A DNA stretch of 64,000 nucleotides, taken from positions 1 to 64,000 of the forward strand of contig NZ_CAMLJQ010000010.1 of NCBI RefSeq assembly GCF_946480305.1, given 5' to 3'. Positions 45,254 through 63,647 of this stretch are shown here, piece by piece (position 1 is the stretch's first letter; each line of letters opens with the position of its first letter). This DNA is from an uncultured Caldimonas sp. GTDB lineage: Bacteria > Pseudomonadota > Gammaproteobacteria > Burkholderiales > Burkholderiaceae. The position numbers were made by a program, and so were the translations under genes. The notes beneath the pieces were generated by a model. That model was not told where the DNA came from and did not search any database. It saw only the letters and a program-made list of their open reading frames with translations.

Positions 45254-46129
45254 ATGCCAAGCCGCCCACGCCGCCCCTCCGCCCGCGCGCTCGAACGGAT
45301 CGGCCCGCTCACTCCTCATCTGTTCACCCCCACCGCGCAGCGGCCGGTGCGGGCCAAGTCGCACGGGCTGCGCGCCGACTTCCACGTGACGCCGCACACC
45401 CACCCGTGGGGGCAGCTCACTTTTTCCGCCACCGGCGTGCTGCGGCTGAGCACCGCGCGCAGCACCTACATCGTGCCGCCGTCGCGGGTGGTGTGGGTGC
45501 CACCCGGCGTGGAGCACGCCATCACCGTCATCGAAGATGCGGACATGCGCACCGTCTACTTCCACCAGCCGGGCGGAAGCTGCGGGCCGCAACCCTTGCA
45601 GGGCAGCGACGCCGAATGGCGCCAGTGCCGGGTGCTCGAGGTGTCCGACCTGCTGCGCGCGCTGGTGCTCGAACTCGACACCCGGGCCGACAGCGACAGC
45701 ACGGCCCTGACACCCGAAGAACTGCGCCGCGAGCACCATCTGAGTGCGCTGGTCTGCGATGAACTGCGTCGCGCTCGGGCCGTGCGCCTGGGGGTGGACC
45801 TGCCGAGCGACAAGCGACTGCGTTCGCTGTGCCAGGCGGTGCTCGACGACCCGGTCCGCCACGCGACGCTCGACGCCTGGGCGCAGGACGTCGGCGCCAG
45901 TCCGCGCACCATCGCCCGGCTGTTCCGGCAGGAGCTGGGCTCGAGCTTCGTGCAGTGGCGCCAGCAGGTGCTGCTGGCCAAGGCACTGTCGCTGGCGGCC
46001 CACAAGCTGCCCATGAGCCACATTGCCGCAGAACTGGGCTATGCCAGCGCCAGCGCCTTCACCGCCATGGTGCGCCGCTCGGTCGGCACGCCGCCCAGCC
46101 AGTTCTTCGGCGCCCAGACGGCGCGTTGA
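45254..46129 (+). CDS. AraC family transcriptional regulator
   Basis: A 291-residue regulator. The N-terminal cupin-like effector domain (about 40-110) contains HTHPWGQLTFSATGVLRLST and VPPSRVVWVPPGVEHAI. The C-terminal double helix-turn-helix (about 195-285) has DAWAQDVGASPRTIARLFRQELG and HIAAELGYASASAFTAMVRRSVGTPPSQF. It is divergent from the MFS-RidA-cupin genes and likely controls them. The effector is unknown. Confidence 0.91.
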   Translation: MPSRPRRPSARALERIGPLTPHLFTPTAQRPVRAKSHGLRADFHVTPHTHPWGQLTFSATGVLRLSTARSTYIVPPSRVVWVPPGVEHAITVIEDADMRTVYFHQPGGSCGPQPLQGSDAEWRQCRVLEVSDLLRALVLELDTRADSDSTALTPEELRREHHLSALVCDELRRARAVRLGVDLPSDKRLRSLCQAVLDDPVRHATLDAWAQDVGASPRTIARLFRQELGSSFVQWRQQVLLAKALSLAAHKLPMSHIAAELGYASASAFTAMVRRSVGTPPSQFFGAQTAR

Positions 46130-46361
46130 CAGCCTCGCGCTTGCGCAAGACCGTTCATCGACGTGCGATGACCGCCCGACCATCGGGCCTGATGCCCCCA
46201 CTTCGGGTGACATGACCGGCCGGGTTTGGGTGACTAAACTGCAACCGAACGTCACGTTGCGCCGGTTGTCGTTGCGGCCCGGCGCCTCATGGCATCCCGC
46301 TTGCCACCGCAGCAAGACCGCGCGCCGCGCCGCGCACATTTCAAGGACGAGAGGACGCAGC

Positions 46362-47651
46362 ATGCTCACCTCCCTCTTCGGCGACCTCGGCTCCCCCAAT
46401 GAACCTCGGGGGCGCGGCCGTCGCGCGGCAGCGGAAGGGCCGGACTTCGCGGCCACCGCCATCCTTGAAAGCACCGCGACCGAGGTCAGCGACCAGGGGC
46501 ACATGGTCGACAAGCACACGCGCGACCTGTTCATCACCGGCTCCCCTTCCGAGGCAATCCGTCAGCAACTGAAGGCGACCCGCGCCGACCTCGACACCGC
46601 CACGCGGCAGATCACGCTGTTCGACCCGGCCCGCATGTGGGCCAGCAGTGTGATCAAGGCGCTGTCGGACGCCTCCGGTCAACCCATCGAGCGGCTGCAC
46701 CTGAGGCACCAGAACACGCTGGCGACCATCGCGCTGATCGAGCGAACCGCGCTGCCCCGGCGGGTGGAAGACCCGCTGAAGGTCTATCACACCGATGTGC
46801 GCGATGCCGGCAGCGACGCGCAGACCATCCCCGTGGCGCTGATGGAAAGCAGCCATCTCACGGCCGTGATCGTGGCGCCGATGCCGCAATCGGCGCTCGA
46901 GCAGATCGTCGGCATGCTGAACGCCGCCACCCGTGGCACCCACTGGCGCTGCCCCAACCTGCTGTTCATGCTGTCGACCCCGGTGGCGCAGATGGCCCCG
47001 CGCATCGCCGCCATGCCGTGGCCGGAGCGGCTCAACGTGATGGTGACGACCGAGCCGATGACCAGCGCGTCGGCCGTATGGAACAACGTGCTGAACGTGT
47101 GGAACAAGGTCAAGGGCCTGCCCAAATGGGAGGGGGCCGCCCTGGTGGACAACGACTTCCCGATCAAGGTGGCTGACCTGGAGCCGCCGGTGGCCGGCAA
47201 AGTGCCGCGCACCCCGCCCTCCACGGCGCCCGCGCCGACAGTCACCGCTTTGCAGGCCGATGTGCCGCGCCCGTCGCTCGACGGCACACGCCTCGTGCGC
47301 ACGCTCGATCAGCTGATGCAGGTCGAGGGCATGCTCGCCTGCTGCGTGGTCGACTCCACCACCGGCATGGTGCTCGGCAGCCAGATGGCCGACGACACCG
47401 ACGACCTGAACATCGGGCTGGCGGCCGCCACCCACACCGAAGTGTTGAAAGCGCACCGCCGTGCCTCGCTCGACATGGGCTGTGGCGACCGGGTCGACGA
47501 GATCATCGTCACGCACGCCAAGCGTCACCAGGTGCTGCGAACCGTCTCTGCGCACCCGGACGTCTTCGTGCTGGCCATCCTCGACAAGCTGCGCACCAAC
47601 CTCGCGCTCGCACGCTTCAAGATCATGGACGCAGAAAAGTCCTTGGGATAA
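46362..47651 (+). CDS. Uncharacterised two-domain protein, Roadblock-like C-terminus (paralogue A)
   Basis: A 429-residue cytoplasmic protein I cannot name. Residues 45-270 form a mixed alpha/beta domain (RDLFITGSPSEAIRQQL, ALMESSHLTAVIVAPMPQSAL, WRCPNLLFML, WNNVLNVWNKV). After a proline-rich linker (about 280-300), residues 306-425 look like a Roadblock/LC7 domain (LDQLMQVEGMLACCVVDSTTGMVLGSQM, then HQVLRTV and LDKLRTNLALARFKI). GAGGAC precedes the ATG. A second copy of the same length and layout lies at 59614-60891, divergent from nadB; this one is 105 bases upstream of nadA. Roadblock proteins commonly regulate small GTPases, but none is seen here. A link to NAD synthesis is inferred from location only. 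Confidence 0.75.
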   Translation: MLTSLFGDLGSPNEPRGRGRRAAAEGPDFAATAILESTATEVSDQGHMVDKHTRDLFITGSPSEAIRQQLKATRADLDTATRQITLFDPARMWASSVIKALSDASGQPIERLHLRHQNTLATIALIERTALPRRVEDPLKVYHTDVRDAGSDAQTIPVALMESSHLTAVIVAPMPQSALEQIVGMLNAATRGTHWRCPNLLFMLSTPVAQMAPRIAAMPWPERLNVMVTTEPMTSASAVWNNVLNVWNKVKGLPKWEGAALVDNDFPIKVADLEPPVAGKVPRTPPSTAPAPTVTALQADVPRPSLDGTRLVRTLDQLMQVEGMLACCVVDSTTGMVLGSQMADDTDDLNIGLAAATHTEVLKAHRRASLDMGCGDRVDEIIVTHAKRHQVLRTVSAHPDVFVLAILDKLRTNLALARFKIMDAEKSLG

Positions 47652-47679
47652 CGCCCGAGCCACCCCATATCCATGTGCG

Positions 47680-47700
47680 CGAGCGCCCGGCGGGCGCTCG
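47680..47700 (+). promoter_or_regulatory. Hairpin upstream of nadA
   Basis: CGAGCGCCC (47680-47688) and GGGCGCTCG (47692-47700) form a perfect 9-bp stem with a three-base loop, 57 bases before nadA. There is no T-tract, so it is not a standard terminator; TACCAT just after it could be part of a -10 box. Confidence 0.4.
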
Positions 47701-47756
47701 GCTACCATTTCGGTCCACCTCCGCCACGCAGGCACGTTGTTGCGCCTGCCCGCCAC

Positions 47757-48869
47757 ATGGAACAAGTGATCTTCGACTACACCCGGCAGGACGCCTCCGG
47801 CGCCAGCTGCACCGCTCACGCCTGGGCCAAGGTGCCCGAGCCGCTCGGCCCCGACCAGCGCCGGCAGTGGAAAGAGCGCGCCAAGGCGCTGCTCGCCCGC
47901 CACAACGCCGTGCTCGTCGCGCACTACTACGTCGACGGCGACCTGCAGGACCTGGCACTCGAGACCGGCGGCTGCGTCGCCGACTCGCTGGAAATGGCCC
48001 GCTTCGGCCGCGATCACGCGAGCAAGACGCTGGTGGTGGCGGGCGTGCGCTTCATGGGCGAGTCGGCCAAGATCCTGTCGCCCGACAAGCGGGTGCTGAT
48101 GCCCGACCTTGACGCGACCTGCTCGCTCGACCTCGGTTGCCCGCCGGACGAATTCGCCGCCTTCTGTGACGCCCACCCGGACCGCAAGGTCGTCGTCTAT
48201 GCCAACACGAGTGCCGCCGTGAAAGCGCGCGCCGACTGGATGGTGACGAGTTCCTGTGCGCTGGCCATCGTGCAGCACCTGAAGGATCAGGGCGAGAAGA
48301 TCCTGTGGGCGCCCGACAAGCACCTGGGTCGCTACATCCAGGAGCAGACCGGCGCCGACATGCTGATGTGGAACGGCGCCTGCATCGTGCACGACGAGTT
48401 CAAGGGCATGGAGCTGGAACTGCTCAAGCGCGAGCACCCCGGCGCGAAGGTGCTGGTGCACCCGGAATCGCCGCGCAGTGTGGTCGAGCAGGCCGACGTG
48501 GTCGGCTCCACCTCGCAACTGCTGCAGGCCGTGGTGCAGGGCAGCGCGACCGAATACATCGTCGCCACCGACAACGGGATCCTGCACCGCATGCGGCAGC
48601 TCGCGCCCGACAAGGTGCTGATCGAAGCCCCCACTGCCGGCAACAGCGCCACCTGCAAGAGCTGCGCCCACTGCCCCTGGATGGCGATGAACGCGTTGCA
48701 GGGTGTGGTGGCCTGCCTCGAACAAGGCACCGGCGAGATCACCGTGCCCGAACCCACCCGCAGCCAGGCGCTGGGCTGCATCGAGCGCATGCTCGACTTC
48801 GTCGCCCGCCACCCCGCCAGCATCTCGAAGCCTGCGCAAGGCTTTGTTCCCAACGTCGGCGCGGCCTGA
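47757..48869 (+). CDS. nadA: Quinolinate synthase
   Basis: A 370-residue [4Fe-4S] enzyme that condenses iminoaspartate with dihydroxyacetone phosphate to quinolinate. The cluster cysteines are in [17 protein letters not shown] and [29 protein letters not shown] and [20 protein letters not shown] are family signatures. The 370 residues fit the larger proteobacterial subtype. nadC follows after 15 bases, so the two form an operon; paralogue A lies just upstream on the same strand. The partner nadB is about 9 kb away, near 57.8 kb. Confidence 0.97.
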
Positions 48870-48884
48870 GGCGCCTTCTTACCC

Positions 48885-49751
48885 ATGTTTGACTTCAACG
48901 AAACCCTTGAGCAGGCGCGCGAGCGCAACGTCCGCGATGCACTGATGGAAGACATCGGCCGCTGCGACTGGACCGGCCAATTGGTGCCAGCCGGGCAACG
49001 CGTGAAGGCCCGCGTGCTGGTGCGCGAGGACGCGGTGCTGTGCGGGCGCGAGTGGTTCGAAGGCTGCGTGAAGGCGCTGGATGCCGGGGCGCGCATCGAC
49101 TGGCACTACGACGAAGGTGCCCGCATGGCGCCCGACACCCTGGTCTGCCACATCGAGTCCGACGCGCGCGCGCTGCTGGCCGCCGAGCGCCCCGCGCTGA
49201 ACTTCCTGCAGTTGCTGTCGGCCACCGCCACCCTCACCCGCCGCCACGTCGATGCGATCGAGGGTGCCTCGCCCAACCCGCGCGGCTGCGCCATTCTCGA
49301 TACCCGCAAGACCATCCCCGGGCTGCGGCTGGCCCAGAAGTACGCCGTGCGCGTCGGCGGCGGCCAGAACCAGCGGCTGGCGCTCTACCACGGCATCCTC
49401 ATCAAGGAAAACCACATCGCGGCCGCCGGCGGCATCACGCAGGCGCTGCGCAACGCGCAGGCCCTGAATGCGGGCGTGGACATCCAGATCGAGGTCGAAT
49501 CGATCGGGCAACTGCGCGAAGCGCTCGCGGCGGACGCGACGAGCGTGCTGCTGGACAACTTCTCGCTCGAGCAGATGCGCGAAGCCGTCTCGGTCAACCA
49601 GGGGCGTGCGCTGCTGGAAGTGTCGGGCAGCGTGCAACTCGATCAGGTGCGAGCCATCGCCGAAACCGGCGTCGACCGCATCTCGATCGGTCGCCTGACG
49701 AAAGACATCAAGGCGGTCGACTACTCCATGCGCGTGCTCGAACGCCTCTGA
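48885..49751 (+). CDS. nadC: Nicotinate-nucleotide diphosphorylase (carboxylating)
   Basis: A 288-residue quinolinate phosphoribosyltransferase that converts quinolinate and PRPP to nicotinate mononucleotide. Family signatures include RALLAAERPALNFLQLLSATAT, ILDTRKTIPGLRLAQKYAVRVGGG and QIEVESIGQLREAL, with VSGSVQLDQVRAIAETGVDRISIG at the end. It is the second gene of nadA-nadC. Confidence 0.97.
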   Translation: MFDFNETLEQARERNVRDALMEDIGRCDWTGQLVPAGQRVKARVLVREDAVLCGREWFEGCVKALDAGARIDWHYDEGARMAPDTLVCHIESDARALLAAERPALNFLQLLSATATLTRRHVDAIEGASPNPRGCAILDTRKTIPGLRLAQKYAVRVGGGQNQRLALYHGILIKENHIAAAGGITQALRNAQALNAGVDIQIEVESIGQLREALAADATSVLLDNFSLEQMREAVSVNQGRALLEVSGSVQLDQVRAIAETGVDRISIGRLTKDIKAVDYSMRVLERL

Positions 49752-49893
49752 ACGCCTGATCGCCCCCCGCAAGCCGGGGCCCTCGACGACCGCCACCTCT
49801 CCTAGAATCCGCCAGCCCGGCAACGGGCGGAGGGGGAGCCGGCCTGCCCGCTCCCACCACAACAACCAAATGTTCGCCCGGAGAGGGGCCATC

Positions 49894-51102
49894 TTGAATC
49901 AACAACTCGTCTATAAGCACGAGCGCGCGCTGGCGGCCATCTGCCTCGTGTTCTCGCTGTTCATCTGGGTGCCGCTGACCCTGCTCACCGCAGGCCTGGT
50001 GCTCTTCTACGGCTTCATCGCCTACCTGTTCGTCCACTCGGCGTTCATCTCGTACATCAAGGGCACGGCGGTCAAGCTGACCCCCACCCAGTTCCCCGAC
50101 CTGCACAAGCGCTTCGTCGAATGCTGCCGCAAGCTCGAGGTGCAGGAGCTGCCCGAGGCCTACGTGCTGCATGGCGACGGCCTGTTCAACGCGTTTGCCA
50201 CCCGCTTCCTGGGCCGGCACTTCGTGATCCTGCTGTCGGACGTGGTCGACGCATTCGACGACCAGCCCGAGGCGCTGGACTTCTACATCGGCCACGAACT
50301 GGGCCACATCCGCCGCGGTCACCTCACCGGCGCCATCTGGCGTGCGCCGGCCGCCCTGTTGCCGCTGCTCGGTGCGGCCTACTCGCGTGCCCGCGAATAC
50401 ACCTGCGACCTGCACGGACTGGCCTGCTGCCCCAACCCCGAACATGCGGCCCGTGGGCTGGCCGCCATTTCGGCGGGCGGCAAGCGCTGGGCCAACGTGA
50501 ACCTGCGCGAACTGGCGCAGCAGTCGCAGCATTCCGGCGGGTTCTGGATGTCGTACCACGAGCTGACGGGCGACTACCCGTGGCTGGTGAAGCGGCTGGC
50601 CCGCCTCCTCGACGGCGACAACGTGCAGTTCCCGAGGCGCAGCGGTTTCGCCTGGCTGTTTGCGTTCTTCACGCCGCGGGTCGGGGGTCATGGCAGTGGC
50701 GCGGTGGGCATCTTCGCAATGGTCGCGGTGGTCGGCATCCTGGCGGCAGTGGCCCTCCCGGCGTACCAGGACTACACCAAGCGCACGCAGGCGTCTGAGG
50801 CATACCAGTACGGCATGCAGGCCGCGAAGCTCGTCGAGGGCTATTACGTGCAGAACGAGGAAGTGCCGGAATCGCTGGAGCAGGCAGGCTTCACGAGCGG
50901 CGCGCTGCCTGCAGGCCTGGACAGCATCGCCTACTCGGGCGAGGACGTGAACGTCGTCCTGGTGATGAAGGACGAGACGACGATCAGGCTGATTCCCCGC
51001 CTCGACGACGAAGGCAACGTGCACTGGTCGTGCGAATCCGACATGGCGCACAAGCACCTGCCGCCGGCATGTCGCATCGAAGCAGAGGCCGAGCAGGAAT
51101 AA
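49894..51102 (+). CDS. M48 metalloprotease fused to a type IV pilin-like segment
   Basis: A 402-residue membrane protein. One or two helices near 15-55 (AAICLVFSLFIWVPLTLLTAGLVLFYGFIAYLF) precede an M48 zinc protease domain with HELGH at 134-138 and the third-ligand region RAREYTCDLHG. From about 272 there is a pilin-like piece: GIFAMVAVVGILAAVALPAYQDYTKRTQASEA, as in the N-terminal helix of type IV pilins, followed by a short globular domain with paired cysteines. Fusion of a protease and a pilin module is unusual. The TTG at 49894 is preferred because GAGAGGGG precedes it; ATG 49870 has none. The role is unknown. Confidence 0.85.
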   Translation: MNQQLVYKHERALAAICLVFSLFIWVPLTLLTAGLVLFYGFIAYLFVHSAFISYIKGTAVKLTPTQFPDLHKRFVECCRKLEVQELPEAYVLHGDGLFNAFATRFLGRHFVILLSDVVDAFDDQPEALDFYIGHELGHIRRGHLTGAIWRAPAALLPLLGAAYSRAREYTCDLHGLACCPNPEHAARGLAAISAGGKRWANVNLRELAQQSQHSGGFWMSYHELTGDYPWLVKRLARLLDGDNVQFPRRSGFAWLFAFFTPRVGGHGSGAVGIFAMVAVVGILAAVALPAYQDYTKRTQASEAYQYGMQAAKLVEGYYVQNEEVPESLEQAGFTSGALPAGLDSIAYSGEDVNVVLVMKDETTIRLIPRLDDEGNVHWSCESDMAHKHLPPACRIEAEAEQE

Positions 51103-51126
51103 GCGCGGCTCTTCGCTCCGCTCAGG

Positions 51127-51159
51127 AAAAGGCCAGCTGTTCATTCAGCTGGCCTTTTT
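51127..51159 (+). terminator. Intrinsic terminator after the M48-pilin gene
   Basis: AAAAGGCCAGCTG and CAGCTGGCCTTTT form a perfect 13-bp hairpin with the loop TTCATT, ending in a T-run (CCTTTTTG). It separates the protease gene from the hut operon. Confidence 0.92.
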
Positions 51160-51217
51160 GCCTTGCGCCTCCCCTGCAACGAGTTCCAACCCCTGAGTGA
51201 CATCGAAAATTCCTGTA

Positions 51218-51245
51218 TTGACCTGTATATACAAGTTGATATGAT
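51218..51245 (+). promoter_or_regulatory. hut promoter with overlapping HutC operator
   Basis: TTGACC (51218-51223) and TATGAT (51240-51245) are spaced by 16 bases. The palindrome TGTATATACA at 51224-51233 lies inside the spacer and resembles the CTTGTATATACAAG operator of known HutC repressors. Repressor binding would block RNA polymerase directly. The hutC ATG at 51255 is only nine bases after the -10, so the transcript is nearly leaderless. Confidence 0.8.
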
Positions 51246-51254
51246 GCGCCGATC

Positions 51255-51983
51255 ATGTCGACCCAAGCTGCCCCCGAATACCTCAAGCTCAAGCGCCACA
51301 TCCTGGGCCGCATTGCCGCAGGCGACTGGCGGCCGGGCGAGCGCATCCCCAGCGAAGGCGAACTGACCCGCGAATTCGGCCTCTCGCGCATGACGGTCAA
51401 CCGCGCGCTGCGCGAGTTGGCCGCCAGCGGCGCAATCACACGGGTTCAGGGCGTCGGCTCCTTCGTTTCCGGCCCCAAGGCCGAGTCGACGATGGTCGAG
51501 GTGCACGGCATCCGCGACGAGATCCTGCAGCGCGGCCAGCGGCACCGTGCCTCGGTGCTGTCGCTCGGCTCGACGCAAGCCGATGCGGCGCTCGCCCAAG
51601 CCTTCGGATTGCCGGTGGGCACCCCGCTGTTCCATTCGCTGCTGCTGCACTTCGCCGACGAGCAGCCGCTGCAACTCGAAGACCGCTACGTCAACCCGGC
51701 GGCCGCCCCCGGTTACCTGGAACAAGACCTGGGCACCGATACACCGCATCACTACCTCTCGCGCGTGGCGCCTCTGGAGCAGGCCGAGCACGTCATCGAG
51801 GCCGACACGCCCGCGCCCGAGGTCGCACGGCACCTGCAGCTCGACGCTCAGGAACCCGTGCTGGTGCTGAACCGCCGCACCTGGTCCGGCGGCCGGGTGG
51901 TGAGCGTGGCCAAGCTGTTCCACCCTGCGCGCCGCTACAGGTTGAGCGGCCGTTTCTCGTTCACGCAGCCTCACCACGGCTGA
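51255..51983 (+). CDS. hutC: Histidine utilization repressor HutC
   Basis: A 242-residue GntR-family repressor. The winged helix (about 1-75) has [34 protein letters not shown] followed by [19 protein letters not shown]; the UTRA effector domain (about 90-235) follows, ending near [16 protein letters not shown]. HutC binds urocanate, which releases it from the hut promoter. It is first in hutC-U-H-G-I and downstream of its own operator, so it is autoregulated. Confidence 0.95.
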
Positions 51984-52017
51984 CCCGCCCTCCACCAGAA
52001 GGCACCCAGGAGACCCC

Positions 52018-53697
52018 ATGAGCACCCCACCCCGCACCGTCCGCGCGCCCCGCGGCCCTGAACTGCATTGCAAGAACTGGCTGATCGAGGCCGCCTACCG
52101 GATGATCCAGAACAACCTGGACCCGGAGGTGGCCGAGCGGCCGGAGGACCTGGTCGTCTACGGCGGCATCGGCAAGGCGGCCCGCAACTGGCCGGCCTTC
52201 GAGGCCATCCTCGAGTCGCTGCGCCAGCTGCAGGCCGACGAGACGCTGCTCGTGCAGTCCGGCAAGCCGGTGGCCGTGCTCAAGACACATGCGGACGCGC
52301 CCCGCGTGCTGCTGGCCAATTCGAACCTGGTGCCGAAATGGGCCACGTGGGAGCACTTCCACGAACTCGATCGCAAGGGCCTGATGATGTACGGCCAGAT
52401 GACGGCCGGCTCGTGGATCTACATTGGCTCGCAAGGCATCGTGCAGGGCACGTATGAGACCTTCGTCGAGCTGGGCCGCCAGCACTACGGCGGCGACTGG
52501 TCCGGCAAGTGGATCCTGACCGCGGGCCTGGGTGGCATGGGCGGCGCCCAGCCGCTGGCGGCCGTGCTGGCCGGTGCACACTGCATCGTGATCGAGTGCC
52601 AGGAGTCGCGCATCGACTTCCGCCTGCGCACGCGTTACGTGGATCACAAGGCGCACAGCATCGACGAGGCGTTGCAGATCATCGCCAACGCCAAGCAGCC
52701 GACCTCGGTGGCATTGCTCGGCAATGCGGCCGACCTGCTGCCGCAATTCGTCGAACGCGCACGGCGCGGCGGCCAGCGCCCGCACGCGGTGACCGACCAG
52801 ACCTCGGCCCACGACCTCGTCAACGGCTACCTGCCGCGCGGCTGGACGGTCGAGCAATGGCAGGCTGCCCGCGCAGGGACCGACGCACAACGGCTGCAAC
52901 TGGTGCAGGCCGCTGCCGCCTCGTGTGCCGAGCACGTGCGCGCGATGCTCGGCTTCCATGAAATGGGGGTGCCGACCATCGACTACGGCAACAACATCCG
53001 CCAGGTCGCGCTCGACCAGGGCGTTTCGAACGCGTTCGACTTTCCCGGCTTCGTGCCCGCCTGCATCCGCCCGCTGTTCTGCGAGGGCAAGGGCCCGTTC
53101 CGCTGGGTGGCGCTGTCGGGCGACCCGGAAGACATCTACAAGACCGATGCCAAGGTGAAGGAGCTGTTCCCCGACAACGCGCACCTGCACCGCTGGCTCG
53201 ACCAGGCGCGCGAGCGCATCGCCTTCCAGGGGTTGCCGGCACGCATCTGCTGGCTCGGCTTGGGCGAGCGGCACAAGGCGGCGCTCGCCTTCAACGAAAT
53301 GGTGCGCAACGGCGAGCTGAAGGCGCCTGTCGTGATCGGCCGCGACCACCTCGACTGCGGCTCGGTCGCCAGCCCCAACCGCGAAACCGAAGCCATGCGC
53401 GACGGCTCGGATGCAGTGTCGGACTGGCCGCTGCTCAACGCACTGACCGCCACCGCCGGCGGCGCCACCTGGGTCAGCCTGCACCACGGCGGCGGGGTCG
53501 GCATGGGCTATTCGCAGCATTCGGGGGTGGTGATCGTCTGCGACGGCTCGCGCGAGGCCGATGCCCGCCTCGAACGCGTGTTGTGGAACGACCCCGCCCT
53601 CGGCGTCGTGCGCCATGCCGACGCCGGCTATGAACTGGCGATACGCACTGCGCGCGAACAAGGCGTGCGCATCCCCCTGCACGGAGGTGCCCTGTGA
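52018..53697 (+). CDS. hutU: Urocanate hydratase
   Basis: A 559-residue NAD-dependent urocanase that hydrates urocanate to imidazolonepropionate. The N-terminal motif [27 protein letters not shown], the NAD-binding [11 protein letters not shown] and the C-terminal [18 protein letters not shown] are diagnostic. The length matches the family. It overlaps hutH by four bases (GTGA), so translation is coupled. Confidence 0.98.
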
Positions 53698-55241
53698 ACC
53701 CGGCCGACCGTCTGATCCTGCATCCCGGCAAGCTCGACCTGCTGACCCTGCGCGAGGTGGCCGCCGGCTTCATGCCGATCGAGCTTGACCTCGAATGCCG
53801 TGCCGGCATCGCCGCCAGCGCCGCCACGGTGCAGCGCATCGGCGAAGGCAGCGAGCCGGCCTATGGCATCAACACCGGCTTCGGCAAGCTCGCGAAGGTG
53901 CAGATCCCCCGTGAGCAGCTCGCGCTGCTGCAGGCCAACCTGGTGCGCTCGCATGCGGTGGGCGTGGGCCCGCTGCTCGACGACGACACGGTGCGGCTGA
54001 TCCTGCTGCTGAAGATCGCTTCGCTCGCACGCGGCTATTCCGGCATACGGCCGGAGGTGCTGGATGCGGCCATCGCGATGTACAACGCGCAGATCTGGCC
54101 ATGCATTCCCTCCCAGGGCTCGGTCGGTGCCTCGGGCGACCTGGCGCCACTCGCCCACCTGACATTGCCGTTGATGGGCGAAGGCCAGGTGCGCGTCGAA
54201 GGTCACGTGATGGATGCAGCACAGGCGCTGAAGCAGGCTGGGCTGCAACCGGTGACGCTGGCGGCCAAGGAAGGTCTCGCCTTGCTGAACGGCACGCAGG
54301 TGTCGACCGGCATCGCGCTGATCGGCCTGCTGCGCGCCGAGCAGGTGTTTGCAGCAGCTGTGGTAGCCGGCGCGTTGAGCGTGGACGCGGCCAAAGGCTC
54401 GGACGCCCCCTTCGACGATCGCATCCATCAAGTGCGCGGGCACGCAGGCCAGATCGAGGTGGCCCGGTTGTACCGCCAACTGCTCGATGGCAGCGCGATC
54501 CGCGCCTCGCACCGCACCGGAGACGACCGCGTGCAGGATCCCTACTCGCTGCGCTGCCAGCCGCAGGTCATGGGCGCCTGCCTGGAGCTGATCCGCAATG
54601 CGGCGAAGACGCTGGTCATCGAGGCGAATGCGGTGTCCGACAACCCGCTCGTGTTCACCGACAGCGGCGAAGTGCTCTCGGGGGGCAACTTCCACGCCGA
54701 GCCGGTGGCCTTTGCAGCCGACACGCTGGCGCTCGCGATCGCCGAGGTCGGGGCGCTGTCGGAGCGCCGCATCGCACTGCTGATCGATGCCACGCTCTCG
54801 GGCCTGCCGCCCTTCCTGGTGGCTGACCCGGGCATCAACTCCGGCTTCATGATTGCGCACGTCACGGCTGCGGCATTGGCCAGCGAGAACAAGACGCTCG
54901 CCCACCCCGCCAGCGTGGACTCGCTGCCGACCTCGGCGAACCAGGAAGATCATGTGAGCATGGCCACCTTCGCTGCCCGCAAGCTTGCCGACATGGCACT
55001 CAACGTGCGCCACATCATCGCCATCGAGCTGCTCGCGGCTGCCCAGGGCATCGACTTCCACCGGCCGCTCGCATCGTCGGTGCCGCTCGAAGAAGTGCAC
55101 GCGGCGATCCGCAGCCGGGTGCCTCACTACGCGCAAGACCGCTACTTCGCGCCGGACATCGCAGCCGTCGAGCAACTGATCGACGCCGGCACCTTCACAC
55201 GCTATGCGGGCGGCGTGCTGCCCTCATGGAGCGCGGCGTGA
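53694..55241 (+). CDS. hutH: Histidine ammonia-lyase
   Basis: A 515-residue lyase that removes ammonia from histidine to give urocanate. The electrophilic MIO cofactor forms from Ala146-Ser147-Gly148 in [23 protein letters not shown] near the N-terminus and [15 protein letters not shown] are family signatures. The start is GTG within the hutU stop overlap. It acts first in the pathway but is third in gene order. Confidence 0.98.
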
Positions 55242-56221
55242 GCACCGCGCACGGGCCGCAATGGCGGGTGCCGTGGCAGGGCCGCGTCGACGCGCTCGAT
55301 GGCGAGGCGGGCCATCGCTGGCACCAGGTGGTGCAGCCGTGGCATGAGAACGCTGCGGCGGGCGTCGCGTTGCTTGGCCTGGCCAGCGACGAGGGGGTGC
55401 GGCGCAACCAGGGCCGCGCGGGCGCCGACCAGGGCCCGCTGGCTCTGCGGCGCATGCTCGCCAACCTGCCCGTCCACCGGCCTCTGCCACTGTATGACGC
55501 TGGCGACGTCGCCTGCCTGGACCAGCAGCTCGAAGCCGCGCAGCGCGAGTACGCCGCGCGTGCATCGCGACTGCTCGACGGCGGCCATCTGGTGCTCGGG
55601 CTGGGCGGTGGGCACGAGATCGCGTGGGCCAGCTACCAGGGCCTTGCGGCCTCGCAGCATGCGCCGCGCAGTGGCGAGCGCCTGGCCATCGTCAACTTCG
55701 ACGCCCACTTCGACCTGCGTCGAGACACGCAGTCCACCTCGGGCACCGGCTTCCTGCAGGCGCTCGACCACGCGCAGACGCAGGGCTGGAACGTGGCGTA
55801 TCGCTGCCTCGGGCTCAGCGTCACGTCGAACACACGCGCCCTTTTCGAACTTGCCGGCGAACGTGGTGCTTCGTGGGTGCACGACGACGAACTGACCGCC
55901 GCCACCTTGCCCCAGCGCTGGGAAGAGCTGCAACGCTGGCTCGCAGGGTTCGACCATGTCTACCTCACGGTCTGCCTCGACGTGCTGCCCGCCTGCGTGG
56001 CCCCCGGTGTGAGCGCGCCCGCCGCACGCGGGGTGCCGATGGACGTGCTGGAGCCGCTGGTCGCCTGCGTCGCCGGCTGCGGCAAGCTGCGCATCGCAGA
56101 CATTGCCGAGTTGTGCCCGGCGTTGGACATCGACCAGCGCACCGCGCGCACCGCCGCGCGCCTGGCGTGGCGCGTCGTCGACAGCTGGCAGAAAGCCGCC
56201 GCATGCAAACCGACCTGCTGA
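55238..56221 (+). CDS. hutG: Formimidoylglutamase
   Basis: A 327-residue arginase-superfamily enzyme that splits N-formimidoylglutamate to glutamate and formamide. Metal-site motifs are [12 protein letters not shown] and [11 protein letters not shown]. In the third site the sequence is TVCLDVLP, where arginase has SFDID, so the first Asp aligns with a Cys. The GTG at 55238 is preferred over ATG 55226, because GGAG precedes it and it gives the four-base overlap (GTGA) used throughout this operon. No hutF is present, so the pathway runs by this direct route. Confidence 0.92.
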
Positions 56222-57417
56222 TCCGCAACGTGCACCTGGCAACGCTTGCCGACCCGAGCGGCTATGGCGAGTTGCACGACGCAGCCCTCGCGATCGTCGA
56301 TGGCCGCATCGCGTGGCTCGGACGAGCACGAGACCTGCCACGCGACCTGCGCGCCGAGCGTGAAGTCGACGGCCACGGCGGCTGGCTCACGCCAGGACTG
56401 ATCGACTGCCACACGCACCTCGTCTGGGCCGGCAGCCGCGCGGCCGAGATCGAGCAACGCTGGCAGGGCGCGAGCTATGAGGAGATCGCGCGCGCCGGCG
56501 GCGGCATCGTGTCCACCGTGCGTGCGACCCGCGCCGCGTCGCTGGACGATCTGATCGAAGCAGCAACGCCGCGCATGCTCTCGCTGGTACGCGAAGGCGT
56601 CACGACGCTGGAGATCAAGTCCGGCTACGGGCTGGACCTGGAAACCGAGCTGCGCCTGCTGCGGGCCGCGCGACGCCTGGGTGACCTGCACGCCATCCGG
56701 GTGAAGACCACCTTCCTGGGCGCGCACGCGGTGCCCCCCGAATACCGCGGTCGGGCCGACGAGTACGTCGACTTCGTCTGCCACGAGATGCTGCCGGCGG
56801 CGCACCGGGAAGGGCTGGTCGACGCGGTCGACGCGTTCTGCGAAGGGATCGGCTTCTCGCCCGCCCAGACCCGGCGGGTCTTCGAAGCGGCCCGCTCGCT
56901 CGGCCTGCCGGTCAAGCTGCACGCCGACCAGCTCAGCGACCTGGGCGGCGCCGCGCTGGCAGCCGAATTCCAGGCCCTGTCGGCCGACCACATCGAGTAC
57001 AGCTCGCGCGACTCCATCGCCGCCATGGGCCGCATCGGCACCGTGGCCGTGCTGCTGCCCGGTGCGTTCTACTGCCTGCGCGAAAAGCAGTTGCCCGACG
57101 TGGCCGCGCTGCGCGAGCACGGCGTGCCCATCGCCCTGTCGACGGACTGCAACCCGGGCACCAGCCCATGTACGTCACTGCTGCTGATGCTGCACATGGG
57201 CTGCACGCTGTTCGGGCTGACCCCGGCCGAAGCCCTGACAGGGGTGACGCGCCATGCCGCACGCGCGCTGGGCCTGCAAGACGAAACGGGCCGCCTGGCG
57301 CCCGGCCTGCAGGCCGACCTGGCTCTCTGGGCCATCGACCATCCACGCGATCTGGCATGCCGCTTCGGCTTCAACCCGCTGGCAGCCTCATGGCGAGGCG
57401 GGCGCAGCGTGATCTAA
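56203..57417 (+). CDS. hutI: Imidazolonepropionase
   Basis: A 404-residue amidohydrolase that opens imidazolonepropionate to N-formimidoylglutamate. The metal-site motif [15 protein letters not shown] is followed by [10 protein letters not shown] and the late Asp in [12 protein letters not shown], all typical of HutI. The ATG overlaps the hutG end by 19 bases. It completes the hutC-U-H-G-I operon. Confidence 0.97.
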
Positions 57418-57488
57418 GGCGCACCGGGTCTGCACTTCGGGCTACAGCTTCGGCCACCACGGCCGATACTGCCCACGAGGAGCCCGCC

Positions 57489-57779
57489 ATGCGCATCACC
57501 GACGACTTCGCCACCATCCACAACTACTACGAACGCCCCGTGATGCAGGCCATCTCGGACGCGACCGCCCGCTATCCGCACATGAAGGCGGACTTGCTCC
57601 CGGACGTGCTGTGCGTGGCGCTCAACCGCCTGCCGCCGCGCTACATCCGCCACGAGGTGGATCTGGTGTTCTATCTGACCGAGAAAGAACGCGCCGAGAT
57701 CGAACGCGCCGTGGAAGAGGCCGTCACCTTCGCGTTCGAGTTCGTGCAGGCCCGCGCCGCGATGCGCGCGCGCGGCTGA
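57489..57779 (+). CDS. ComFB-like late competence protein
   Basis: A 96-residue protein of the ComFB family: YYERPVMQAISDA at the N-terminus and LLPDVLCVALNRLPPRYIRHEVDLVFYL in the core, which is the family signature. Some ComFB proteins bind cyclic di-GMP or cyclic di-AMP; the role here is unknown. It lies 71 bases after hutI on the same strand and six bases from the convergent nadB stop. It could be read through from the hut operon or have its own promoter. Confidence 0.85.
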   Translation: MRITDDFATIHNYYERPVMQAISDATARYPHMKADLLPDVLCVALNRLPPRYIRHEVDLVFYLTEKERAEIERAVEEAVTFAFEFVQARAAMRARG

Positions 57780-57785
57780 CGCGCC

Positions 57786-59423
57786 TCACATTCCGAGGAA
57801 GTTCGGCACCGGCGCCCCGTTGCCGCCGCGGCGCCCGGCCGGGCGCACGAGGATGGTCGGGAAGCTGGCCGGCAAGGTCTGCGGAAAGTCGCGGCTGTAG
57901 TGCAGCCCGCGGCTTTCGTGCCGCACGAGCGCCGAACGCACGATCAGCTCGGCGCAATCGACCAGGTTGCGCAACTCCAGCAGGTCGCGCGTGACGCGGA
58001 AGTTGGCGTAGTAGTCGTCGATCTCGGTGCGCAGCAGCTTGATGCGGTGCAGCGCCCGCTCCAGACGGCGCGTGGTACGCACGATGCCGACGTAGTTCCA
58101 CATCAGCAGTCGCAACTCGTCCCAGTTGTGCGAGATGACGACCTGCTCGTCGGCGTCTTCCACCTGGCTTTCGTCCCACGCCGGCAGCAAGGGCGGTGCA
58201 TCGCCCGCGTGCTCGCGGATGTGCTCGGCCACCGTGCGCCCCAGCACCACGCATTCCAGCAAGGAGTTGCTGGCCAGCCGGTTGGCGCCGTGCAGGCCGG
58301 TGTAGCTGGCTTCGCCCACCGCGTACAGCCCCGGGAGGTCGGCACGGCCGCTCAGGTCCGTGACGATGCCGCCGCAGGTGTAGTGCGCGGCCGGCACCAC
58401 GGGTATCGGTTGGCGCGTGATGTCGATACCGAGCTTCAGGCACCGTGCGTGGATGGTCGGGAAGTGTTCCTTCAGGAAGTCGGCGCCCAGGTGCGTGGCG
58501 TCGAGCCACACATGGTCGAGGCCGTGCTTCTTCATCTCGAAGTCGATCGCGCGAGCCACGATGTCGCGCGGGGCCAGCTCGCCGCGGGCATCGTGCGCAG
58601 GCATGAAGCGGGTGCCGTCGGGCAGCTTCAGTTGCGCGCCCTCGCCGCGCAACGCCTCGGTGATCAGGAAGCTGCGCTCCTGTGGGTGGTACAGGCAGGT
58701 GGGATGGAACTGGATGAACTCCATGTTGCCCACCCGGCAGCCCGCGCGCCACGCCATCGCGATACCGTCGCCGGTGGCGGTGTCCGGGTTGCTGGTGTAG
58801 CGGTAGACCTTGCCCACGCCCCCGGTGGCGAGCACCACCGCGGCGGCGGGCAGCGTCTCCACGCGGCCCTGGTCGATGTCGAGTGCATAGACGCCGTAGC
58901 AGCGCGATGGCTCGTCGCGCTTCAAATGGCGGGAGGTGATCAGGTCGACCGCCATCCAGCGCTCGCGCAAGTCGACGTTCGGATGCGCCTTGACCTGCGC
59001 CAGCAGCACGTCGTGGATGGCCTTGCCGGTCGCGTCGGCCGCGTGCGCGATGCGGCGCACGGCGTGCCCGCCTTCACGCGTGAGATGCAATCCAAGCGGG
59101 CCGGAAGGGTCAGCCGAGAACGGCACGCCGCGCTGCACCAGCCATTCCACGGCGCTAGCACTGTGCTCGGCGATGAAGCGGGCGGTCTGCTCGTCGACCA
59201 GCCCGGCGCCGGCATCCTGCGTGTCGCGGACGTGGCTGTCGACGCTGTCGTCGCTGCCCAGCACGCCCACAATGCCGCCCTGCGCCCACGCCGTCGCCGC
59301 CTCGTCCATGTTCCGCTTCGCCAACACCACCACCGGCTGATGGTCGGCCAGATGCAATGCCACGGTCAGCCCGGCGAGCCCGGCGCCAACAATGACGACG
59401 GGGGCTTGTGAAGTCGCTTGCAT
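57786..59423 (-). CDS. nadB: L-aspartate oxidase
   Basis: A 545-residue FAD enzyme that oxidises L-aspartate to iminoaspartate, the substrate of NadA. The N-terminal dinucleotide-binding motif is [16 protein letters not shown]; further motifs are [52 protein letters not shown] and [15 protein letters not shown] with the catalytic-region residues of the succinate dehydrogenase/aspartate oxidase family. It is separated from nadA-nadC by about 8 kb and is divergent from paralogue B (190 bases between starts). Confidence 0.97.
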
Positions 59424-59563
59424 GCGAGTCCTGTTGTGTTGGCGGAGATGGAGGGCCGATTCTATCGGCGGCCTTCGCAGCCAAGCCCCGGCGGGGTGGG
59501 GCCGCCCTGCGCGGTCAGCGCACGCGGCGCTCGCCTCACCCCCAATTCAGGTGGAACAGGAGA

Positions 59564-59653
59564 ATGAAACAAGTGGTTACACTGAATTTCATCCGCCCCA
59601 ACCCCCCTCCGCCATGTACCAGCCTCCCCTCCAGGACACCAACGGCCGGGTAA
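59564..59653 (+). CDS. Possible 29-residue proline-rich leader peptide
   Basis: A short reading frame (MKQVVTLNFIRPNPPPPC...) begins at an ATG with AGGTGG about nine bases upstream and overlaps the start of paralogue B in another frame. The four-proline run PPPP could slow ribosomes. It could be chance; no conservation evidence is available from one sequence. Confidence 0.2.
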   Translation: MKQVVTLNFIRPNPPPPCTSLPSRTPTAG

Positions 59654-60891
59654 AGCACGGCCGAAGCCTTCAACCGGACCAAGCCACCGAGTGGGCCGCC
59701 ACCCGACCATCGGACGGCAGCCACACGGCCATCATGGACGAGGAGGACGAATACCTCAGCGGCCACCCAAGGGACATCGGCCGCCCGGTAGGAGGCGACA
59801 CCTGGGAGCTGTTCGTCTCATGCGATGCGGCCGAGGCGCTGCGTCAGCAATTCGTGCATCTGGAGAGCCGCCACATCGCGCTGCACGATCTGGGCGACAC
59901 GCACTCACGCCAGTTCCTGCGCCAGCTCGCCGCCTTCGGGTGCAGCCCGGTGCAGCGGCTGGTGATCCGCCAGCAGGGTTACGGCACCACGCTCGCTTGC
60001 ATCGAGTACGTCACTTTCACCGACCAAGGCGGCGAGAAGACGCGGCTCTATTCCACCGCCGCCGACAGTACGCCCTCCGCCCAGCAGGCGCTGGCACGCG
60101 TGCTGATGGAACACAGCCAGGCCAGCGTGGTCCTGCTGGGTGAGATGGCCGGCCAAGGCAGCGCCAACGCGCTGCGGTCGATGATGCAACTGGTCCATGC
60201 CAGCACCTGGAGCTGCCCGAATCTGCTCGTGCTGCCGCTCGGCAGCCATGCGGCAGCGGCAGCCGCCTCGCAAGGCGAGCAGGTCGTCCAGCGTCACGGC
60301 CTGCTGGTCCGCGCTGCGTCAGCCCCGTCGCGTCCTGTCGACGCGTGGAACTACATCCTGGGGTTCTGGCAGAAGAACCATCTACGCGGCCGCCTTGCCG
60401 CCCCGGCCAGCAGCCATGAGCTGCGCCTGCTGGCGCTCGACCTCGAGCCGCCGGCACCGCCCCCAGCTGCCGTGCGCCAGGCTTTTGCGCCGGCACCGAA
60501 GGCACAGCCCTCGGTGGCGCTCCCGGTGGAGCTGGCGACCTATCTGCGGCTGGTGTCACAGCTTGCCGGCGTGCAGGCCTGCTGCGTGTTCGACATCAAC
60601 CAGGCCACCGCCCTCGCCCATGCCGGCAGCAGCCCCTCCGCTCTTCAAATGGCCCAGCAAGGTGCGGCGCTCTTCCAGGCACAGCACCTCGCCCGCATGG
60701 CGATGAGCATCGCCGAGCCCGCACAGGAGATGCTGCTGTCGTCCGAGCGTCACCATCAGGTGCTGCGCCCGCTGCCCGGCCGCCGCAACCTCGCCCTGCA
60801 CTGCCTGTTCGAACGCAGCAAGACCAACCAGTCGCTGATTCGTTTCCAGCTTCAAAAACTCGACGCCTGGCTGCAAAGCCAGCGGGGCTGA
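59614..60891 (+). CDS. Uncharacterised two-domain protein, Roadblock-like C-terminus (paralogue B)
   Basis: A 425-residue protein homologous along its length to the one at 46362-47651. Matching stretches include VLMEHSQASVVLL (A: ALMESSHLTAVIV), WSCPNLLVL (A: WRCPNLLFM), WNYILGFWQK (A: WNNVLNVWNK), LAGVQACCVFD (A: VEGMLACCVVD) and RHHQVLRPL (A: RHQVLRTV). The N-terminal domain covers about 65-265; a proline-alanine linker follows, then a Roadblock/LC7-like domain from about 303. The Roadblock part is more degenerate than in A. The ATG at 59614 has no Shine-Dalgarno; a later start near MDEEDEYLSGH is possible. It is divergent from nadB. Confidence 0.72.
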   Translation: MYQPPLQDTNGRVKHGRSLQPDQATEWAATRPSDGSHTAIMDEEDEYLSGHPRDIGRPVGGDTWELFVSCDAAEALRQQFVHLESRHIALHDLGDTHSRQFLRQLAAFGCSPVQRLVIRQQGYGTTLACIEYVTFTDQGGEKTRLYSTAADSTPSAQQALARVLMEHSQASVVLLGEMAGQGSANALRSMMQLVHASTWSCPNLLVLPLGSHAAAAAASQGEQVVQRHGLLVRAASAPSRPVDAWNYILGFWQKNHLRGRLAAPASSHELRLLALDLEPPAPPPAAVRQAFAPAPKAQPSVALPVELATYLRLVSQLAGVQACCVFDINQATALAHAGSSPSALQMAQQGAALFQAQHLARMAMSIAEPAQEMLLSSERHHQVLRPLPGRRNLALHCLFERSKTNQSLIRFQLQKLDAWLQSQRG

Positions 60892-60944: not shown

Positions 60945-63548
<2,604 letters not shown>

Positions 63549-63647
63549 GGAAAATCCTCCGAATTGCGAAGGAAATGAGGCAGGCGTTGCACATTTCAAG
63601 TGCAAGCGCCGTGCCTCGACATGCGCTGGATCAATCCAGCGCCGCGA

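Follow-up and report, generated by a model that had tools for sequence, protein, structure and literature searches.

Paralogous roadblock proteins of predicted Rag-like build beside the nad genes of an uncultured Caldimonas sp.

Two related proteins at a nad locus

The window analysed here is a 64,000-nucleotide stretch of DNA from an uncultured Caldimonas sp. (assembly GCF_946480305.1, contig NZ_CAMLJQ010000010.1, positions 1 to 64,000), which carries genes for the de novo synthesis of nicotinamide adenine dinucleotide (NAD) and, beside them, the genes of two related proteins that we name RB1 and RB2 (Table 1). A sequence-only reading of this DNA had described the two as Roadblock-like paralogues flanking split nad genes, and had suggested that they act in, or sense, NAD supply. 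Both frames are indeed open on the forward strand, at the places and lengths given there (429 and 425 residues); RB1 ends 105 bp before nadA, which is followed by nadC, and the starts of RB2 and nadB lie 190 bp apart in divergent orientation, with the nad genes confirmed by Pfam (the start of nadA was set at MEQVIF). RB1 and RB2 are roadblock proteins for which a Rag-like architecture is predicted; their link to the nad genes, though real, is dispensable, which corrects how the locus had been read.

The two proteins are 25% identical over 409 columns in a single BLASTP comparison (E 7e-25), and their profiles align with a probability of 100% (E 7e-41) over 383 columns that span both halves, the N-terminal domains alone aligning at E 3.7e-23. 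The shared layout seen earlier thus reflects homology from end to end. Scans of the two single sequences against Pfam and NCBIfam gave no significant match. Each chain begins with a tail of low model confidence that nevertheless contains conserved short motifs (MLxSLFGxL and FAATAIL in RB1, WxATR and ATQ in RB2), behaving as binding motifs would.

Table 1. Features of the window, and positions of a third paralogue in related loci
Feature	Position	Strand	Description
RB1	46362..47651	+	Disordered N-tail, Ras-like pseudo-G domain (predicted, ~81-250), linker, roadblock domain (~307-429)
nadA	47757..48869	+	Quinolinate synthase; Pfam NadA 4.3e-103
nadC	48885..49751	+	Quinolinate phosphoribosyltransferase; Pfam QRPTase_C 3.3e-49
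Splitting block	49752..57499		M48 peptidase-pilin gene, hutC, hutU, hutH, hutG, hutI
comFB-like gene	57489..57779	+	Frequent nad-cluster member in the family; Pfam ComFB 1.7e-20
nadB	57786..59423	-	L-aspartate oxidase; Pfam FAD_binding_2, Succ_DH_flav_C; position in nad cluster
RB2	59614..60891	+	RB1 paralogue; pseudo-G domain (predicted) ~84-259, roadblock domain ~303-425
clpB	60945..63605	-	Frequent RB2 neighbour, nad-less genomes included
RB3	L036 from 11427; L037 from 10051; L087 8700-10022		Third paralogue, in other genomes

The roadblock domain

The C-terminal domain of both predicted models has the alpha-beta-beta-alpha-beta-beta-beta-alpha order of the roadblock fold. A profile of the RB1 family matches MglC (E 2.2e-4), a roadblock protein that works on a separate GTPase, MglA. 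Pfam Robl_LC7, accepted at E up to 1, is found in 7/24 RB1 relatives (best 1.1e-4) and in 1/20 RB2 relatives (E 0.05), and many RB1 relatives carry the source names ‘roadblock/LC7 domain-containing’ or ‘predicted regulator of Ras-like GTPase activity’, whereas RB2's own profile found no roadblock sequence in the PDB. Membership of the Roadblock/LC7 superfamily, as the sequence-only reading had it, therefore holds by way of family profiles and relatives rather than of the window proteins taken singly. Some family members that carry neither RB1 nor RB2 have stand-alone roadblock proteins of ~119-146 residues that are near to the C-terminal domain of RB1 (L090, L091, L092 and L094), and no MglA-type neighbour was recognised beside these genes.

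A predicted Ras/Arf-like domain lacking GTPase motifs

In front of the roadblock domain, each protein has a domain that is predicted to be Ras/Arf-like, so that the order along the chain, by predicted structure, is that of the Rag/Gtr proteins, Rag being a reporter of nutrients in human cells. Rag/Gtr proteins are the best Foldseek matches of RB2, with whole-chain root-mean-square deviations of 15-18 Å, and the Rag/Gtr arrangement of the domains is therefore not matched. The earlier statement that no small GTPase is encoded here was incomplete, since the models point to a GTPase-like fold in the N-terminal half of each protein itself.

The motifs that define GTPases, taken from excerpts of PMC4316618, were sought in 96 sequences (50 RB1, 43 RB2 and 3 of a third paralogue, RB3), with second copies of the same gene, the fragments L070, L071 and L093 and the interrupted RB1 of L004 set aside. 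The G1 P-loop, GxxxxGK[ST], occurs in 0/96 and a bare GK[ST] string in 4/96, and of the G4 motif, [NT]KxD, only one sequence holds the string NKxD (L044_RB1). Because G1 and G4 fail, we do not class RB1 and RB2 as Rag GTPases. The place of the P-loop is taken by conserved, non-canonical stretches, DPxxxWAxxVIKALSDA in RB1 and HDxGTxSSRxLL in RB2, and in RB2 the residues R119, G122 and G124, after the second strand, are conserved in at least 95% of sequences. Conservation of the N-terminal and roadblock domains is 0.74 and 0.62 in RB1 and about equal in RB2 (0.65 and 0.62), which argues that the N-terminal domain is not decaying. The RB1 of Caldimonas manganoxidans (L004 10001-11338) has an in-frame stop between the two domains, either from decay or from a sequencing error.

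Family, tree and a third paralogue

At E 1e-3, RB1 has 1094 relatives among 7997 candidates scored and RB2 has 61 among its scored candidates, one of them an RB1. The family is concentrated, in the samples used, in one family of Burkholderiales. Full-length RB2 was found in 2/300 genomes of an order-wide sample (at most five candidates scored per genome), one of them the window's own genome, G004. The closest relative of the window's RB1 is that of Caldimonas mangrovi S2-27 (86% identity), of the family Sphaerotilaceae, the label also carried by the loci of the window's genus. On a tree of the 96 sequences the labels RB1, RB2 and RB3 need one change each, with support of 99 for RB2 and 100 for RB3, and since the RB2 sequences of several genera that have RB1 as well fall into a single group, the duplication predates these genera. 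In Sphaerotilus-like genomes RB3, which is very divergent, is found between RB1 and nadA; of its 84 relatives, those named to genus are Sphaerotilus.

Association with nad genes and persistence without them

The distribution of RB1 and RB2 was counted in 200 genomes of the family, which are related to one another, so that the counts are not independent events. A protein was counted only if the match covered the N-terminal domain; roadblock-only matches (the remainder of 56/200 and 49/200) and a weaker second RB1-like match in G448 were left out, while G421, with a partial RB1 match and a genome of only 1.7 Mb, was retained. nadA and nadB were called at E 1e-50 and 1e-100, respectively. RB1 is present in 27 genomes and RB2 in 34, with both in 24, RB2 only in 10 and RB1 only in 3 of the 37 that carry either. 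Where RB2 and nadB occur together (26 genomes), the gap is below 500 bp in 24 and 815 and 3252 bp in the others; where RB1 and nadA do (19 genomes), it is below 500 bp in 15 and 1292-1768 bp in three, while in the remaining genome the two genes sit on separate contigs. The longer RB1-nadA gaps are filled by RB3 (G023, G385) or by comFB and RB2 (G458). Of 44 RB1 loci, 25 are followed within ~1.4 kb by a co-directional nadA; none was seen in the other 19, five of which end within ~2.6 kb of RB1. The adjacency to nad genes, which the sequence-only reading had offered as a check on itself, is thus real across the family, but it is not obligatory and the converse fails, as 117/144 nadB-positive genomes of the sample carry no RB gene.

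At these cut-offs, nadA and nadB were both undetected in ten of the 37 RB-bearing genomes, the term nad-less referring here to these two genes. One of the ten is the probably incomplete G421, and some absences may come from incomplete assemblies. Genome-wide searches of a partly overlapping set, the genomes of 31 of the 44 RB1 loci (the 13 left out lying mostly on short contigs), found nine without nadA and nadB that keep both RB1 and RB2, two of which are named as isolates (Schlegelella koreensis ID0723 and Rhizobacter sp. Root404). On an RB2 tree with 31 nad-positive and 11 nad-less rows, nad presence requires five changes (5-6 on bootstrap trees), two of them forced by well supported branches. 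Against this background, the suggestion of a role in NAD supply or in sensing it is not supported as it was stated, and it is weakened further by the ComFB census described below.

Neighbourhoods without nadA and nadB were examined for a partner, and no gene stood out. RB1 adjoins RB2 in G418 (L084) and lies by comFB in G340 (L085), and the order in G425 is MFS-AraC-comFB-RB2-clpB (L082). RB2 is beside clpB in nine of the ten RB2 loci inspected among L054-L073, L070 ending first. Downstream of RB1 in L021 lie genes that we take to encode a methyltransferase, GloB-like and MltD-like proteins, RecR, YbaB and DnaX, presumably with RNase HI as well in L031, and other loci repeat similar gene sizes and orders. 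Neither promoters nor terminators were picked up by scans near RB1 and RB2.

The comFB-like gene of the window stands inside the nad cluster, and the ComFB-like family is reported, in excerpts of PMC12313861, to bind cyclic di-AMP and cyclic di-GMP. Three loci (L086, L082 and L085) suggested a functional RB1-comFB-RB2 module, which was dropped after a census of comFB: its distance from nadA or nadB is at most 5 kb in 23/25 RB genomes that bear comFB and also in 29/44 genomes without RB, and only 2/10 nad-less RB genomes have it. comFB is thus tied to nad more widely than the RB genes are, and therefore goes with nad, not with RB.

A possible pseudo-GTPase scaffold pair

We propose, with a probability of about 0.55, that RB1 and RB2 are a nucleotide-independent pair of pseudo-GTPase scaffolds, dimerised by their roadblock domains, which is syntenic with the nad genes but independent of them. 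They are an anciently duplicated bacterial pair, predicted to have the two-domain build of Rag/Gtr, and their Ras-like domain (the pseudo-G domain) lacks nucleotide-binding motifs. Where both are present they may form a heterodimer, which is plausible by analogy with the Rag/Gtr pairs and with a pair that the Asgard archaeon MKD1 encodes in one operon, and elsewhere homodimers; as RB2 is found alone in 10/37 RB-bearing genomes, homodimers would also have to work. Conserved patches on the surface of the pseudo-G domain, together with the conserved short motifs of the N-terminal tail, could then bind partner proteins or a ligand. The pair flanks the nadA-nadC-comFB-nadB cluster of Sphaerotilaceae and would be held there by synteny and perhaps by co-expression, with a function that does not require de novo NAD synthesis.

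Several observations weigh against this proposal. The fold of the N-terminal domain is argued from predicted models because no sequence kinship to P-loop GTPases was detected: hhalign gave a probability of 0.2 for the domain of either protein when set against a profile built from 30 domains of P-loop GTPases (drawn from the relatives' loci and not selected to include Ras, Arf, Rag or MglA), the RB2 profile retrieved no GTPase from the PDB, and model confidence is low over the first half of the RB1 domain. A DxxG string occurs somewhere in the N-domain stretch of 48/50 RB1, 28/43 RB2 and 3/3 RB3 sequences, and might in some be a remnant of G3. The RB1 branch has a support of 1, with long branches coming together near the split of RB1 from RB2. 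The heterodimer is not obligatory, as 10/34 RB2 genomes have no RB1 match, and although contig ends may hide some, at least three loci (L075, L076, L078) have less than 1 kb upstream of nadA. Finally, the short conserved distances to nad genes could mean a shared function.

This last point leads to the alternative that RB1 and RB2 regulate or sense NAD supply, adjusting quinolinate or NAD synthesis by binding to Nad enzymes or to a pyridine metabolite. Besides the short gaps to nadA and nadB, it draws on split clusters in which RB1 keeps with nadA and RB2 with nadB, for instance ~332 kb apart in G295. However, six split genomes of the RB2 tree (L047-L049, L051-L053) form one group, so that the split was probably one event, and in G025 the contig with nadA and nadB carries neither RB gene. 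Together with the nad-less RB genomes, the at least five changes of nad presence on the tree and the many nadB-positive genomes without RB, this leaves a role in NAD supply unlikely. Roadblock regulators of an unlinked small GTPase, with an N-terminal alpha/beta module unrelated to GTPases, would fit the closeness of the C-terminal domain to the MglB and MglC types and the lack of N-domain kinship; we regard this explanation as quite doubtful. No MglA-type GTPase was recognised beside RB genes in the neighbourhoods inspected, where many neighbouring frames are unlabelled, and Pfam Arf, the sole GTPase model run, has matches in 24/31 genomes, judged by frame size only. It is more improbable still that the G-like domain binds nucleotide through non-canonical motifs or is re-used as a pocket for another ligand, for example a cyclic dinucleotide or NAD(P): the conserved P-loop replacements (DPxxxWA and HDxGTxSSR, commonest residues) and the near-invariant R119, G122 and G124 of RB2 would suit such a pocket, whereas the canonical G1 and G4 motifs are all but missing.

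Relation to known systems

The scaffold pair that we favour can be compared with the Rag/Gtr proteins (RagA-RagC, Gtr1-Gtr2 and the Lokiarchaeal LokiRagO), which likewise place a Ras/Arf-like domain before a roadblock domain in one chain and form two divergent paralogues. The RB proteins differ in being bacterial, in their motifs, in the undetected sequence kinship of the N-terminal domain and in the unmatched domain arrangement, and their heterodimer is itself part of the proposal. MglB and MglC of Myxococcus share the roadblock fold but act on a GTPase separate from them, MglA, whereas the RB proteins have a GTPase-like domain fused in front. A Ras-like fold is also found in the dynein light intermediate chain, which bridges motor and cargo according to excerpts of PMC4359372; this eukaryotic protein is an analogue by description alone. 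GTPase-plus-roadblock architecture is described, in excerpts of PMC10933270, for eukaryotes and Asgard archaea, including the operon pair of MKD1. Titles and abstract beginnings retrieved for roadblock with quinolinate, Burkholderiales GTPases and pseudoGTPases held no paper on the RB proteins.

A bacterial family with the Rag domain order minus G1 and G4 would show that this architecture is useful without GTP, and the role of a pseudo-GTPase dimerised by roadblock domains could be studied in the cultivable bacteria that carry the family. More tentatively, and probably going too far, the two proteins might be a bacterial counterpart of the Rag heterodimer, a nucleotide-free pair serving as scaffold for a metabolic signal, which outlasted the NAD genes for the sake of another signal and represents a non-GTPase branch of Rag in Betaproteobacteria.

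The split of the nad cluster

The nad genes of the window are in two places because a 7.7-kb block, composed of an M48-pilin gene and hut genes, separates nadC from comFB. A close relative (G444, L125; nadA 94% and nadB 93% identical) has the compact order RB1-nadA-nadC-comFB-nadB-RB2-clpB-crcB; the window aligns with its DNA at 46003-49751 and 57500-59467, and as only 115 bp lie between the two stretches in that genome, the block is absent there. This, with the family-wide association, upholds the earlier idea of a rearranged nad cluster. Caldimonas mangrovi has the block at the same place (L001, L126). The hut genes of Aquabacterium sp. A7-Y adjoin comFB-nadB (L130), and its genome is further rearranged, given that nadA-nadC is on a different contig with other DNA following nadC (L002). 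A search for hutU in 12 genomes placed it beside nad genes in two (G001, G002); in eight it is either on a different contig or over 1 Mb distant, and it was not found in G444 and G003. Insertion of the block in one sub-lineage would be the simplest reading. Within the block, the gene at 49870-51102 encodes an odd fusion, in which an M48 metallopeptidase domain (Pfam 8e-16) is joined to a C-terminal type IV pilin-like stretch (Pilin 3.2e-5).
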